This document shows positions 30,132-36,456 of a stretch of DNA of 43,132 nucleotides, one piece after another. The notes below the pieces were generated by a model. That model was not told the origin of the DNA, did no database searches, and saw only the letters and a program-made list of their open reading frames with translations. This DNA comes from Leptolyngbya sp. FACHB-261 (lineage in GTDB: Bacteria; Cyanobacteriota; Cyanobacteriia; FACHB-261). The stretch covers positions 1 through 43,132 of the forward strand of contig NZ_JACJPL010000005.1 in assembly GCF_014696065.1 (NCBI RefSeq), in the 5' to 3' direction. Each line of letters starts with the position of its first letter. Positions within the stretch are counted from its first letter, which is position 1. The translations under genes and the position numbers were made by a program.

Positions 30132-30262
30132 CTCATCTTGATCCAAATGCTTCCGAAGACTGAGGCAATGCATCCGCAATATCCACCAGCAGAAGTAGGC
30201 TTAGAAAATATTGTGGTTCCAGATTAAGACCCTCATACCTTATCAACTTAGTGCATAGGACG

Positions 30263-31381
30263 ATGTATTGGATTACGCAAGTTCAAACTTATATTTTCAA
30301 AGCTTTACAGACGATTAGACGGTGGGGTAAACAGCTCACGGGAACTTGGTTCAACCAACGTTCACTGTGGAGTTCTGTCTGTCTATTTCTGATAGGAATT
30401 AGCTTAAGCGTAACGATCGCTGCCTGCGAAAGCAGCTCTGCTACCAAACTAGATGTCGAGCTAAAGTTAGTCTCCTACTCAGTGACGAAAGCCGCTCACG
30501 ATCGGATTATTCCAAAATTTGTTGAAAAGTGGAAGAACGAACATCACCAAAATGTCAGCTTCGTGCAGAGCTATGGGGGTCTGGTTCTCAAGCTCAGGCT
30601 GTCATCGAAAACTCGCAAGAAGCAGATATAGTACACCTGGCACTCGCTCTAGATATCAATAAAATTCAGCAAGCCGGGTTGATTAAACCGGGTTGGGAAA
30701 AAAAGCTCCCAAAAATGGAGTTGTGACTCAATCGGTGGCTGCTATTGTCACACGTCCTGGCAATCCTAAAGGCATTAAGACTTGGGCAGACCTGGCAAAA
30801 GACGATATTAGGTTGATTGCAGCTAACCCCAAAACGTCTGGTATCGCGATTTGGGAGTTTTTGGCTTTGTGGGGTTCTACAACCCAAACTGGGGGGATGA
30901 ACAGCAAGCGCTGGAGTATGTAACTAAAGTCTATAAAAACGCTCCCACTTTAACAAAAGATGCGCGTGAGGCTAGTGATCTATTTTTCCAACAAAGGCAG
31001 GGAGATGTCTTGATCAACTATGAAAACGAGATCATTCTGTCTGCAACGAATGGGCAGAAGTTGCCTTACACAATTCCTGAAGTTAACATTTCTATCGACA
31101 GTACTGTTGCCGTAGTAGACAAAAACGTTGAGCAGCACAGAACTGAAGAAGTGGCAAAAGCGTTTGTCGATTTTCTTTACTCAACAGAAGCCCAACAAGA
31201 ATTTGCTAAGCTAGGCTACCGTCCCGTTAACCCTAGTGTGGTTGCAGAGGTAGCATCAAAGTATCCTCCAGTCAAAACCTTGTTCACTGTTCAGGATTTA
31301 GGAGGTTGGGATATTGTACAGAAGCAGTTCTTCGGAGACGGGGCAACGTTTGACAAAGTTCAGGCTGCCAGTAAAACATAA
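30263..31381 (+). pseudogene. Sulfate-binding protein (Sbp/CysP type) with three single-base frameshifts
   Basis: A signal/lipobox-like N-terminus (ISLSVTIAACESSS) is followed by LVSYSVTKAAHDRIIPKFV, VSFVQSYGG, then in other frames SGSQAQAVIENSQEADIVH, GVVTQSVAAIVTRPGNPKG, DIRLIAANPKTSGIAIWEF and EYVTKVYKN up to KLGYRPVNPSVV and VQDLGGWDIVQKQFFGDG. These are signatures of periplasmic sulfate-binding lipoproteins, not phosphate PstS. The three frame changes fall at G5 (30575-30579), A7 (30698-30704) and G6 (30891-30896), and each is repaired by one added base. The gene may therefore be intact in the real genome. The first ATG (30251) or the second (30263) could start it. Confidence 0.78.
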
Positions 31382-32183: not shown

Positions 32184-33140
32184 TCAGGCAATTCGTAAAC
32201 GCCCAACATCCTTCTTGGGCGGGGTGCCAAACATGCGGGAATATTCGCGACTGAACTGAGAAGGACTCTCATAACCAACCCGATACGCCGCATAGGTTGC
32301 ATCCGCATTTTCAGCCAGCATTAGGCGACGGGCTTCCAATAACCTCAACTGCTTTTGATATTGCAGCGGGCTCATTGAGGTCACTGCCTTAAAGTGCCGA
32401 TGAAATGATGCAGAAGACATACTCGCTTGCTTTGCTAAATCATCCATGCTCAATGGTTTTGTAAACTCAGCTTTGATCTGTTTAATCACCTCTGCAATGC
32501 GCTGCATATAGCTGCCGGAGGTCGCAATCTGCCAAACCGCCTCGTTCTGGTCGCCCATTAATAGACGGTAATAGATTTCGCGAATTATCATCGGTGCTAG
32601 GAATGGAATATCCTCGGGCGTCTCCAGAAGCCGTGTGAGCCGGGTGGCACAATCAATCAATTGGGTATTGGCATCGCTTACGAACAAGCCTCTCACTGAA
32701 CTTTCTTTTTGAGCTGGAGTGCGCTGGAGTTGGTCGATAATATGCCAAAGCTGAGTCGCGTCCAGGCTTAACTTAAAGCATAGATATGGTTTATCCAGTG
32801 TCGCTTCGACAATATTGCCACTGAGTGGCAAATCTACAGTGACAACAATATATTGAGCTGCACCATAGTGATAGGTTTCCTGTCCCAGTAAGGTTTCTTT
32901 TTTACCCTGAAGAATAATGCAAAGCGTCGGTTCATACACAGCGCGGAGTGCCGTAGGAGCCACAGATTCTCGCATCAATTCCAACTGAGCGATCGCTGTT
33001 GCATGGATACCGTTCCCCATGCCATCCGTGTGGCGGGCCACTAATTCCGCCAGTTCTTGACAAGCATCAATTGTGGTCTCGCGCTTTAAGGATTCATCTG
33101 CCATACCGGGTTCTCTGCTTAGCGGCGTATCGTTAGACAT
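32184..33140 (-). CDS. AraC-family transcriptional regulator
   Basis: From the ATG at 33140 the protein is 318 residues. It has the AraC-type N-terminal domain of the PF06719 group (AVYEPTLCIILQGKKETLL, YHYGAAQYIVVTVDLPLSG) and two C-terminal helix-turn-helix motifs (MDDLAKQASMSSASFHRHF and AAYRVGYESPSQFSREYSRM). Regulators of this group usually control an adjacent oxidoreductase gene. Here it is divergent from the FAD oxidase at 33436, with a 96-bp repeated leader in between. The upstream extension to 33362 is low-complexity and unlikely. An attC-like site lies on its 3' side. Confidence 0.88.
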   Translation of the reverse strand: MSNDTPLSREPGMADESLKRETTIDACQELAELVARHTDGMGNGIHATAIAQLELMRESVAPTALRAVYEPTLCIILQGKKETLLGQETYHYGAAQYIVVTVDLPLSGNIVEATLDKPYLCFKLSLDATQLWHIIDQLQRTPAQKESSVRGLFVSDANTQLIDCATRLTRLLETPEDIPFLAPMIIREIYYRLLMGDQNEAVWQIATSGSYMQRIAEVIKQIKAEFTKPLSMDDLAKQASMSSASFHRHFKAVTSMSPLQYQKQLRLLEARRLMLAENADATYAAYRVGYESPSQFSREYSRMFGTPPKKDVGRLRIA

Positions 33141-33208
33141 CCCTCTTATCGTTTTACTGCGCCTATTATAGAGGGTTCTTTTGAGCACTATACTCCTGCT
33201 TGATAACT

Positions 33209-33304
33209 TTAGGCAATAACCTGAGAAGTTTATGTATTTAGAACCTTGTGTCCAAAGCCTATGATGAACCCATGCCGGAAGAGCAATGAAAGGATAAGGC
33301 AATA
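33209..33304 (+). repeat. 96-bp direct repeat, copy A (divergent promoter region)
   Basis: Starts TTAGGCAATAACC and ends GGATAAGGCAATA. Nearly identical to 35516-35611, with the same length and orientation. It contains a TATGAT element. It lies between the AraC gene and the FAD oxidase and may carry the regulator's binding site. Confidence 0.82.
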
Positions 33305-33435
33305 AAGTTAACTGCGTCCTAGCAAGAGATGGTGAATGGCGGAGTGTGTTGGTGTTCATCAATTACTGTTCATGAGACAGCGCATTGATGAACAGAAGTA
33401 TTCTCATGTCTTCAAACAATGAAAGGAAGTAACTA

Positions 33436-34914
33436 ATGTCACAAAATCAAGGAACTGCTCAATACGAGAGAAATGGGCAAACTCATGTTCAAATAACTTC
33501 TTCCCAAGAGCAGCATAACTACGAAGAAGCAATCGAGATACTCGCCTCAAAGATCCAAGGTGAACTGATCCTGCCTGATAACCCTGCTTATGAAGCAGAA
33601 CGAAAAGTCTGGAACGGTAGCTTTGATGGCTACCCGGCTGCGATCGTACGCTGTGCTGATGCGGAAGATGTTAAAGTCGCCGTCAATTTTGCGCGTGAGC
33701 AGGCAATGACGCTCTCTGTGCGCAGCGGGGGGCATAGTGCAGCCGGACATGGCACCAATACCGATGGACTGGTGATCGATCTTTCCCAGATGAAGACGAT
33801 TACGATTGACCCGATATGCCACACAGCCCGTCTCGAACCTGGTCTTACCTGGGGTGAAGTCGCCGAAAAGCTTCAGCCCTTTGGATTGGCATTGACAGCA
33901 GGCGACGTTGCCTCTGTGGGTGTAGGTGGTTTGCTGCTCAGCGGCGGCATCGGTTGGATGGTTCGCACCTACGGTTTAACGATTGATCGCTTGCAAGCAG
34001 TGGAGCTGGTTACAGCGGATGGACAACTGCTGCGTGCCAGTGCTGACGAAAATCCCGAACTGTTTTGGGGACTGCGCGGTGGCGGTGGCAACTTCGGCGT
34101 GGCGACCGCTTTCGAGGTAAACCTTCATCCAGGCGGAACTGTTCTGGGGGGTGCCGTCTTTTATGAGGCAACGGAGTCCGAGCGTATCCTGCGAGAGTAC
34201 ACCCGTCTGGCAGCGGCAGCACCGGATGAACTCTCCACTGAAGTTTTGTTCATGCTGGCACCTCCCGCTCCTTTCATTCCACCCGATAAGCAGGGAACCC
34301 CAGTCATCGTGATTATGGTCTGCTACACCGGTGACATCAACGAGGGTGAGCGGGTTGTGGCTCCTCTGCGTCAGCTTGCCACCCCGATTGCCGACCTGAT
34401 TGCGCCTATGCCCTATTCGGCTATTTTTGCATTCACAGCAGTTGGTGAAATCCCTGGCTTTCAGCATCATTCTCGATCGCAGTTTTTCGAGACTTTCTCA
34501 GACGAGATGATCCACGCATTAGTTGAATCCGCTCAATCCATCCTGTCTCCTGAAACGCTGATCACCCTGCGGGTACTGGGTGGCGCGATGAGTCGGATCG
34601 CACCTGATGCAACAGCCTTTGCTCACCGCGATAAACAGGGCATGGTGTTGGTCACTCATTTCGCACCGCTATCGGCTGATGCTGCCAGTCTCGATGCCCG
34701 CACCCAGCAAGTCTTTCGGACACTCTTACCCTACGCTAACGGTGCTTATGTCGGTTTTCTGGCAGACGAGGGAGAGCGGATTCGTGAGGTCTACCCACCT
34801 GCTACCTATGCACGACTCGTGGCGCTCAAGAACCAGTATGACCCGACCAATCTGTTTCATCGCAACCAGAATATCAAACCCACCGTTGCTCCTGCGACGC
34901 TTGCTGCCCAGTGA
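33436..34914 (+). CDS. FAD-binding oxidoreductase of the berberine-bridge/PCMH type
   Basis: The 492-residue protein has the PCMH FAD-binding domain: SVRSGGHSAAGHGTNTDGLV, where the His of SGGHS carries FAD covalently, GVGGLLLSGGIGWM, and LFWGLRGGGGNFGVATAFE. The BBE C-terminus (YDPTNLFHRNQNI) closes it. The second covalent-attachment cysteine found in bicovalent members is not present (VASVGVGG). Such enzymes oxidise sugars, alkaloids or phenolic compounds in the cytoplasm. AAAGGAAGTAACTA precedes the ATG. It is followed by the cupin gene in the same direction. Confidence 0.9.
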   Translation: MSQNQGTAQYERNGQTHVQITSSQEQHNYEEAIEILASKIQGELILPDNPAYEAERKVWNGSFDGYPAAIVRCADAEDVKVAVNFAREQAMTLSVRSGGHSAAGHGTNTDGLVIDLSQMKTITIDPICHTARLEPGLTWGEVAEKLQPFGLALTAGDVASVGVGGLLLSGGIGWMVRTYGLTIDRLQAVELVTADGQLLRASADENPELFWGLRGGGGNFGVATAFEVNLHPGGTVLGGAVFYEATESERILREYTRLAAAAPDELSTEVLFMLAPPAPFIPPDKQGTPVIVIMVCYTGDINEGERVVAPLRQLATPIADLIAPMPYSAIFAFTAVGEIPGFQHHSRSQFFETFSDEMIHALVESAQSILSPETLITLRVLGGAMSRIAPDATAFAHRDKQGMVLVTHFAPLSADAASLDARTQQVFRTLLPYANGAYVGFLADEGERIREVYPPATYARLVALKNQYDPTNLFHRNQNIKPTVAPATLAAQ

Positions 34915-34944
34915 ATGCACAGCGTTACCTTTACCTCTAAAACA

Positions 34945-35410
34945 ATGAGTAATCAATTCAGTCAAAGCAAAGTTGCAATCGTCGGACGAAGCGAGGATCT
35001 CGACTGGTTCGATACAGTGCCTGGTGAGCAGATGGCTATCCGCGTCCATAACTAAAGATGTCGGTGGAGCTTTCACAATTATTGAGGTGGATGTTCCACC
35101 GTTCATCGGACCGCCACTCCACTATCACGAAGATAGGGAAGAAATCTTTGAAGTCCTTGAAGGCAGATTTCGCTTTCACTGCGCGGGCGAAGAGTTTGAG
35201 GTCGCGCCCGGAACATCGGTTGTGGTACCCCGTAACACCGTGCATGGATGGGTGAATCTTGGACCCGGAAGGGCTCGATTGCTCGGCACCTTTGTCCCTG
35301 GTGGAATCGACGAATTCTTCCCCCAAATCGGTCAAACACCGCCCGAAGGTTGGACAGATCTTGCCCGTCAGCACGACACTTGGATTGTTGGAGCGCCCCT
35401 TTCCGTTTAA
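34945..35410 (+). pseudogene. Cupin-domain protein with a +1 frameshift
   Basis: The first frame reads SNQFSQSKVAIVGRSEDLDW and FDTVPGEQMAIRVH, then stops; the next continues KDVGGAFTIIEVDVPPFIG and PLHYHEDREEIFEVLEGRFR, GTSVVVPRNTVHGWVNLG. The two cupin motifs carry the metal-binding HYH and the late His. The frame is restored by removing one base in CATAACTAAAG near 35048-35052. Unlike other breaks in the window this is an insertion. The gene follows the oxidase by 30 bp, so an oxidase-cupin operon is likely if the frame is intact in reality. Confidence 0.75.
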
Positions 35411-35418
35411 GCTCTATC

Positions 35419-35521
35419 TTCTAACGCCGCTCAATGATCCTGCACTCTTCTTACGGCAGAGCAAGTATTTGAATAACGGGATTGAGCAGGATCATCGAGC
35501 GGCTGCTTGAGAAAATTAGGC
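35419..35521. other. attC-like or terminator-like inverted repeat
   Basis: Arms GCCGCTCAATGATCCTGC and GCAGGATCATCGAGCGGC match at 17 of 18 positions. TTCTAAC precedes and ATTAGGC follows, resembling attC ends, but the spacing is uneven. It sits just after the cupin gene and directly abuts repeat copy B. Confidence 0.45.
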
Positions 35522-35611
35522 AAGAACCTGCAAAGTTTATGTATTTAGAACCTTGCGTCGAAAACCTATGATGAACCCATGCCAGAAAAGCAATGAAAGG
35601 ATAAGGCAATA
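35516..35611 (+). promoter_or_regulatory. 96-bp direct repeat, copy B, leader of the SDR gene
   Basis: Near-identical copy of 33209-33304, beginning at TTAGGC as copy A does. It ends 14 bp before the SDR start codon and contains the TATGAT element. It is probably the SDR promoter and may respond to the nearby AraC regulator. Confidence 0.6.
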
Positions 35612-35625
35612 GAGGAGATAGACCA

Positions 35626-36456
35626 ATGACTCAGAAAACATGGTTCATTACAGGTGCTTCCCGTGGAATTGGAGCCGAAATCGCGAAAGCCGTTTTGGCA
35701 GCAGGAGACCAATTAATTGCGACCGCCCGCAAAAAGACCGATCTGGATCAATTTGAGTCGAACCCCAATGTATTGACGCTTAGCCTAGATATTACCGACG
35801 AGACTCAGGTGCAAGCGGCAGTTGCAGCAGGGCTGGAACGCTTTGGGCAGATCGATGTATTAGTTAACAACGCGGGATTTGGTGTACTGGGCGGCATCGA
35901 AGAAACCAGTGCAGAAGAGGTTGAGCGGGTCTATCGCACGAATGTCTTTGGGCTGTTGAATGTGATCCGTGCCGTATTGCCCAGCATGCGCCAGCGCCGC
36001 TCTGGACACATTATTAACCTATCGTCAATCGGGGGCTATCGCTCTACTCCAGGCTGGGGCGTCTACTCCTCAACCAAGTTTGCGGTTGAAGGTATTACCG
36101 AAGCTTTGCATGATGAAGTAGCTCCTTTGGGCATCCATGCGACTGTGGTTGAGCCGGGCTACTTCCGGACTGGTTTTCTCGATGGCAGCTCGCTCCAGCG
36201 CACTGCAATGGAAATTGAGGATTACGCGGAGACGGTCGGCAAAGTTCGTAAAATCGCCTCTGACTTGAGCTATCAACAGCCGGGAGACCCCACCAAGCTT
36301 GCCCAAGCGATGCTTCAACTCGCGAATGCTGATACTCCACCTCTCCGGTTGCCTCTCGGTACAGACACCCTTAAAGCCATTGCCCAGAAGAACGCTTACG
36401 TCGAGCAAGAAACGGCACAATGGCGCGCTCTGGCTGAATCTACTGATTACAGATAG
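35626..36456 (+). CDS. Short-chain dehydrogenase/reductase (SDR)
   Basis: The 276-residue protein is a classical SDR: TGASRGIGAEIAKAVL for NAD(P) binding, NNAGFGVLGG, catalytic Ser in INLSSIGGYRS and YxxxK in YSSTKFAVEG. The R in GASRGIG and the ATARKK after strand 2 suggest NADPH preference. Many AraC-linked SDRs of this subgroup are carbonyl reductases. GAGGAGATAGACC precedes the ATG. It is the last gene of the FAD oxidase/cupin/SDR group and has its own duplicated leader. Confidence 0.92.
   Translation: MTQKTWFITGASRGIGAEIAKAVLAAGDQLIATARKKTDLDQFESNPNVLTLSLDITDETQVQAAVAAGLERFGQIDVLVNNAGFGVLGGIEETSAEEVERVYRTNVFGLLNVIRAVLPSMRQRRSGHIINLSSIGGYRSTPGWGVYSSTKFAVEGITEALHDEVAPLGIHATVVEPGYFRTGFLDGSSLQRTAMEIEDYAETVGKVRKIASDLSYQQPGDPTKLAQAMLQLANADTPPLRLPLGTDTLKAIAQKNAYVEQETAQWRALAESTDYR

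Follow-up and report, generated by a model that had tools for sequence, protein, structure and literature searches.

The direct repeat that flanks a FAD-linked oxidase gene and a cupin gene in Leptolyngbya sp. FACHB-261 is probably an operator copied by insertion-duplication: the oxidase-cupin segment would have entered an AraC-leader-SDR pair, and both leaders would have been kept under one AraC regulator. The repeat is most likely the operator recognised by the adjacent AraC regulator, and this one protein is predicted to control both leaders. The window referred to below is the whole stretch of DNA analysed, which is a complete contig of 43132 bp. The coordinates of its relevant features are summarized in Table 1.

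Table 1. Genes and predicted regulatory features of the AraC-oxidase-cupin-SDR locus of the window.
Feature	Position	Strand	Evidence or remark
AraC_N-type regulator	32184..33140	-	Pfam AraC_N E=2.4e-50, HTH_18 E=3.8e-21
Predicted araC promoter -10 box TATAAT	33165..33170	-	sequence check
Leader copy A: operator, promoter and start of 5'UTR before FAD oxidase-cupin	33196..33307	+	repeat comparison
Predicted AraC half-site 1, copy A	33201..33217	+	21-bp lag signal
Predicted AraC half-site 2, copy A	33222..33238	+	overlaps -35 TTTAGA (33237-33242)
Predicted -10 box TATGAT, copy A	33260..33265	+	TANNNT at same offset in 103/106 distinct sites
FAD-linked oxidase (FAD_binding_4 + BBE)	33436..34914	+	closest solved relative EncM
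Cupin_2 gene	34945..35410	+	frame interrupted near 35050 in the window
Leader copy B: operator, promoter and 5'UTR before SDR	35503..35614	+	repeat comparison
Predicted AraC half-site 1, copy B	35508..35524	+	21-bp lag signal
Predicted AraC half-site 2, copy B	35529..35545	+	overlaps -35 TTTAGA (35544-35549)
Predicted -10 box TATGAT, copy B	35567..35572	+	fixed-offset TANNNT
SDR-family oxidoreductase	35626..36456	+	adh_short E=1.5e-51; NF004824 333 bits, cut-off 298

The regulator belongs to the AraC/XylS family, with an AraC_N sensor domain (PF06719) and a C-terminal helix-turn-helix domain (PF12833), whose E values are those given in Table 1. Its start is more likely the ATG at 33104 (MADES...) than position 33140, since the former matches the ATG that lies about 109 nt before the leader core in the simple loci described below. 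The matches of AraC homologs begin at residues 1–12. In line with the predicted -10 box of araC, a TTATAG block stands beside AraC in many rows of the leader alignment. The SDR is predicted to be the original target gene of the regulator. Concerning the oxidase, its relationship to the EncM-type FAD oxygenases of solved structure extends over residues 37–483 (E about 1e-106), the difference being that the window oxidase is accompanied by a cupin and an SDR. The best-matching NCBIfam models, BagK/FevA1 and BagG/FevA2, gave scores below their cut-offs (269 of 800 and 259 of 850 bits, respectively). The interruption of the cupin frame could be due to decay or to a sequencing error; the homolog is uninterrupted in relatives such as L161. 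Elsewhere in the window, at 30251-31381, a solute-binding-protein-like gene is split over two reading frames, with the domain found in the second part, so the contig may carry more than one interrupted gene.

The two leaders are direct repeats of 112 nt, in one orientation, with 89% identity and an offset of 2307 nt. This confirmed the original prediction that there were near-identical copies of the same length and orientation. The positions it had proposed for them, 33209-33304 and 35516-35611, were right as to location and too short as to extent, the homology beginning 13 nt before the TTAGGC motif, at CTGCTTGA..., and continuing a few nucleotides beyond 33304. Also borne out was its statement that copy B stops 14 bp short of the SDR start (from 35611 to the ATG at 35626). 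In several relatives the homology of the repeat reaches much further on one or both sides. A DNA search of the whole 6.9-Mb genome returned the second copy with E = 1.1e-36 and the next-best place with only E = 0.68, and no DNA-level copies other than A and B were found in the window's own genome. By the protein route, two more AraC paralogs were found in this genome, L217 (G000:C12:18915-19829; 66% identity) and L223 (G000:C13:166655-167557; 64%), each with its own, more diverged leader and an SDR nearby.

Two inverted repeats accompany the leaders. One of 18 nt (94%; 35426-35443 and 35486-35503) lies just 5' of leader B, with its right arm stopping at the beginning of the direct repeat, and a similar sequence occurs at the equivalent place in G053. 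The other one, perfect and of 11 bp (33353-33363 and 33384-33394; TGTTCATCAAT / ATTGATGAACA), is found in the stretch from leader A to the oxidase start, within a region that is common to the relatives as the oxidase's own upstream DNA; it is possibly a second operator or a hairpin.

Leader copies were also found in other families of the class, single or several per genome, when 96 genomes were searched. The aligned leaders share a common core, roughly GAGGATTAGGCAATAACCTGCGAGGTTTGTGTATTTAG, and most of them also have a downstream TATGAT-like box. A degenerate core pattern was scanned over the genome_contigs collection, which yielded 108 loci: 98 with cyanobacterial titles, one in a Chloroflexi-labelled MAG (L077) and 9 unrelated. 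The 98 cyanobacterial-titled loci and L077 make up the 99-locus set considered below. Concerning L077 (MAG AL-N1), its AraC-leader-SDR locus looks genuine, and either misbinning or horizontal transfer would account for it. In the 99 loci, 103 sites had 500 nt or more of upstream sequence, and 80 of these had a divergent AraC homolog starting at most 400 nt away, while in the same pattern scan none of the 9 sites in unrelated taxa had one within 400 nt. The 23 remaining sites comprise 9 SDR-side copies in oxidase-cupin loci (L140 with the cupin alone) and 14 others. These 14 sites, outside insert loci and with no adjacent divergent AraC detected (L044, L047, L059, L065, L066, L070, L089, L090, L119, L121, L131, L134, L139 and L141), may be scattered members of the regulon, or loci whose AraC has decayed. 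Three positions outside the searched pattern, G-5, A-4 and A-1, were fixed in all 106 distinct sites, and a TANNNT -10 box was located at +51 in 103 of them.

The association between core and regulator was also examined starting from the protein. The AraC protein gave 33 matches at E ≤ 1e-60 in the 96 genomes, and loci were built for 30 of them. Using a core profile built from the pattern sites, whose genomes partly overlap with this protein-first set, the core was found in the adjacent intergenic region of 24/24 AraC homologs with 59–100% identity and beside 0/6 of the remoter homologs (42–46% identity), always among the 30 of 33 matches examined. These results tie the core to one AraC subfamily: as judged from sequence comparison, it belongs to a single subfamily of AraC_N-type regulators that is found across cyanobacteria.

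It was also considered whether the repeat could be where a mobile cassette or an insertion sequence ends, with TTAGGC as its border, the role that the original prediction had proposed for this motif. It is true that near-identical copies in the same orientation flank two genes, and that simple loci occur on plasmids, one of them typed as conjugative. However, 91 of the 99 loci have a single pattern site, mostly beside AraC, conservation is centred on the operator and -10 columns, and in several relatives the copies sit inside a longer duplicated segment of host genes. The TTAGGC border was rejected because the homology starts 13 nt before it and extends further in relatives, and a mobile cassette is very improbable as the origin of the repeat.

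Equally improbable is that the leader acts in cis as RNA, as a riboswitch or an attenuator would, and was copied together with its genes. The 5'UTR part is conserved too, and a 4-bp stem TGCC/GGCA with a few compensating changes could be drawn. However, the most conserved columns are upstream of the -10 box, in DNA that is predicted to be untranscribed, and the TGCC/GGCA pairing was no better than in column shuffles (841 of 5000 reached it). A looser stem scan was positive in 23 of 106 sites, to be compared with a mean of 14 and a maximum of 26 after shuffling, and the window gave 0 Rfam matches at the gathering threshold. With no Rfam match and the stem at background, a cis-regulatory RNA was rejected.

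The internal structure of the core may be that of an AraC-type operator. Self-similarity peaked at a lag of 21 bp, where the expected matches were 8.7 of 17. This value was reached at lag 21 by 24 of 5000 column shuffles, and at some lag by 626 of 5000. This modestly suggests that the core consists of two half-sites 21 bp apart, with the second one over the -35. In class II activation by AraC proteins the second half-site overlaps the -35, and in the araI1-I2 operator of Escherichia coli AraC two direct half-sites of 17 bp lie 21 bp apart, with the second one over the -35. The likeness to araI1-I2 concerns the layout, and the half-site reading of the window is a statistical one. The repeated leader would be an operator-promoter-5'UTR unit recognised by the adjacent AraC_N regulator, in which two 17-bp half-sites, upstream of and over the -35, are followed by a fixed TATGAT in a class II-like arrangement. 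Transcription is predicted to start about 7 nt after both TATGAT boxes (33265 and 35572).

The overlap of predicted site 2 with the -35 could also serve to block the polymerase, and the AraC protein would then bind the repeat as a repressor, not as an activator. This was considered unlikely. The -35 TTTAGA resembles the sigma-70 consensus only weakly, which is typical of activator-dependent promoters. Besides, YqhC, an AraC-family protein encoded divergently from its target, is described as an activator (PMC5297802). Activation was thus preferred over repression, and it is predicted, by analogy, that the regulator activates both units and also itself through the divergent promoter.

The original prediction held that the oxidase and cupin genes had come between a regulator and its target promoter, and proposed looking for genomes in which AraC directly adjoins the SDR. 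Such loci exist, and they bear out this view. AraC and SDR are directly divergent, with one leader between them, in G076 (L033; SDR 75% identical), G096 (FACHB-502; SDR 93%), G098 (M33_DOE_097; SDR 92%, followed by a cupin) and G102 (Calothrix brevissima plasmid 2; SDR 87%), and the same order occurs in G103, with a partial AraC, and in G108, with a truncated SDR. It is also found, leader included, on Aulosira laxa NIES-50 plasmid 2, which is closed and typed as conjugative, so that the simple arrangement is carried by two closed plasmids, this one and that of C. brevissima. The oxidase, searched at E ≤ 1e-60, was absent from all six genomes G076, G096, G098, G102, G103 and G108. Thus, the oxidase and cupin are not always at the same place in relatives, as simple loci without them exist. 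Oxidase homologs with E ≤ 1e-180 were present in 12 of the 388 genomes of the class. L140 and L145 were left out of the genome-wide searches.

The oxidase-cupin pair with two leaders was found in the window and in G065, G104, G105, G101, G106, G133, G146 and G222, the contig of the latter ending within the second leader. The same arrangement with extra genes occurs in Nostoc G097, G099 and G107, with a split or partial oxidase in G099 and G107, and it is split over two contigs in G100. In G053 the contig ends near the cupin, and only the SDR-side leader copy was considered.

Remnants of the neighbouring genes were found beside the leaders of these loci. On the oxidase side, a decayed SDR 5' end follows the leader, contiguously or nearly so, in 9 of 15 copies, those of G104, G105 (two loci), G106, G101, WJT8, G133, G146 and G222; at G105:C85 an internal piece of the SDR, 39 nt further on, gave the best match. 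On the SDR side, decayed araC-side sequence precedes the leader, in the opposite strand, in 10 of 16 copies. This remnant passes the araC ATG in eight of them (G104, G106, G101, WJT8, LEGE 06152, G133, G146 and G222), and covers the araC promoter side only in G065 (81 nt) and G105 (about 50 nt). With one reference or more, each SDR or araC remnant outscored every one of its shuffles, while the wrong pairings, oxidase side against AraC and SDR side against SDR, which were run for 17 of the 19 remnants, stayed at background. No SDR or AraC remnant was detectable in the window, in G053 (SDR-side copy only) or in four Nostoc loci, and G065 has a remnant on the araC side only. The decayed SDR 5' ends and araC-side sequences, each at the expected side, indicate that a segment of about 0.5 kb with the AraC start, the leader and the SDR start is duplicated around oxidase-cupin, the window keeping only the leader in both copies. 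The insertion history of the window is thus one that we infer from its relatives; in the window itself, the leader seems to have come next to the oxidase upstream region through a deletion.

The same duplicated segment could have arisen without any insert from outside. A preexisting AraC-leader-SDR-oxidase-cupin array may have been duplicated in tandem, with later loss of the SDR from the first copy and of AraC and oxidase-cupin from the second one. The order AraC-leader-SDR-cupin of G098, with the cupin 3' of an intact SDR, is in line with this possibility, which also predicts the decayed SDR seen between leader and oxidase. However, no convincing oxidase or cupin remnant was found 3' of the SDR-side copy in the loci examined. 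A cupin-like score after the SDR of G104 (45, shuffle maximum 34; 37, maximum 35, against another cupin) was read as chance similarity of the SDR 3' flank, since the same cupin position recurs in the simple locus G102 (34, maximum 32). Moreover, insert loci and simple loci agree in this flank, which suggests that the SDR has kept its original position. Also against tandem duplication, the SDR remnant stops, by eye, at one point in G133, G146, G222, G101, WJT8 and G106, and is followed by shared oxidase-upstream DNA, which looks like a single breakpoint and not like gradual loss. The AraC-side junction is, also by eye, alike in WJT8, G101, G133 and G104. So, tandem duplication appears as a rather unlikely origin, although a far less remote one than a cassette or an RNA element.

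Under the preferred reading, insertion-duplication, the ancestral arrangement would be AraC and SDR as a divergent pair with the leader in between. DNA carrying oxidase and cupin would have entered this pair, leaving on both sides a direct repeat of about 0.5 kb that contained the AraC 5' end, the intergenic region, the leader and the SDR 5' end, as could result, for example, from a single crossover with a circular molecule sharing that segment. The truncated SDR beside the oxidase and the truncated AraC beside the SDR would then have decayed, while both leaders would have been kept because each one drives a transcription unit. Binding and activation by AraC, a single crossover as the route, and a history of the window equal to that of its relatives are predicted elements of this scheme.

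The order of events was also examined by phylogenetic analysis. The SDR alone was too conserved for dating the insertion, with 14 of 21 inner branches open. In the AraC+SDR tree rooted on G076, G102 falls outside a clade (100/99) formed by 12 insert loci together with G096 and G098. The position of G076 and G102 outside the insert clade means that the simple arrangement is probably ancestral. A single clade of insert loci was not rejected (p-AU 0.233, AraC+SDR), and the simple loci G096 and G098, inside the insert clade, are either secondary losses or poorly placed.

In the leader tree, the A and B copies group by position, imperfectly. The column of 33239 has C in the 14/14 other A copies, and T in the 15/15 other B copies and the 6/6 simple copies. 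Copy A of the window has T at 33239 and is also B-like at 33270, which suggests a partial conversion of A by B in the genome of the window; at 33251, a third, weaker diagnostic column, both window copies have the A-majority letter. Partial conversion may help to explain the high A-B identity in the window.

A broader possibility, on the whole doubtful, is that the leader is a recurrent docking site guided by homology, where DNA sharing AraC-leader-SDR integrates by crossover. In Nostoc (L153, L155 and L166), the cluster contains three consecutive leaders, a second AraC and additional genes, SnoaL-like in the case of L153, and the leader of the second AraC is followed, by eye, by what appears to be the decayed start of another SDR family. 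With three leaders, a second regulator and an apparent second SDR start, it is as if the event had occurred twice. If docking were true, the operator would be duplicated automatically and the incoming genes would come under the resident regulator, leaving the original target unbroken.

A divergent AraC regulator with its operator is of a known kind. The spread of control by a copied promoter segment also has a general precedent in horizontal regulatory transfer, or promoter propagation, where such a segment brings new genes under existing control. The difference here is that the route can be read, in relatives, from the truncated neighbouring genes next to the copies. The closest parallel in arrangement is E. 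coli YqhC/yqhD-dkgA, in which a regulator of the AraC family is encoded divergently from an oxidoreductase gene, binds the intergenic region that they share and activates that gene (PMC5297802, PMC8249747). There, YqhC activates the aldehyde reductase gene yqhD with glyoxal and furfural as inducers, and a single target, with one site, is reported for it (PMC5297802, PMC8249747). Compared to that description, in the present locus the same predicted operator precedes two separate transcription units, and the genes under control would be those of an SDR and a BBE-type oxidase. By analogy with YqhC, it may be guessed that the inducer is a reactive carbonyl or a quinone-like compound. In related loci there are, in addition, alpha/beta hydrolases and SnoaL-like proteins, as would fit a pathway of detoxification or modification.

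No description of the operator of this subfamily, or of the recorded route of regulon growth, was found in searches of the open-licence literature. The results provide a predicted operator and a target set for a regulator subfamily that extends across cyanobacteria. They also offer a simple prediction that can be tested at the bench, namely that one protein binds both copies. As regulon growth, the case would be unusually legible: the decayed neighbour genes record how new enzymes would have joined an existing regulator, with the old target keeping its promoter.
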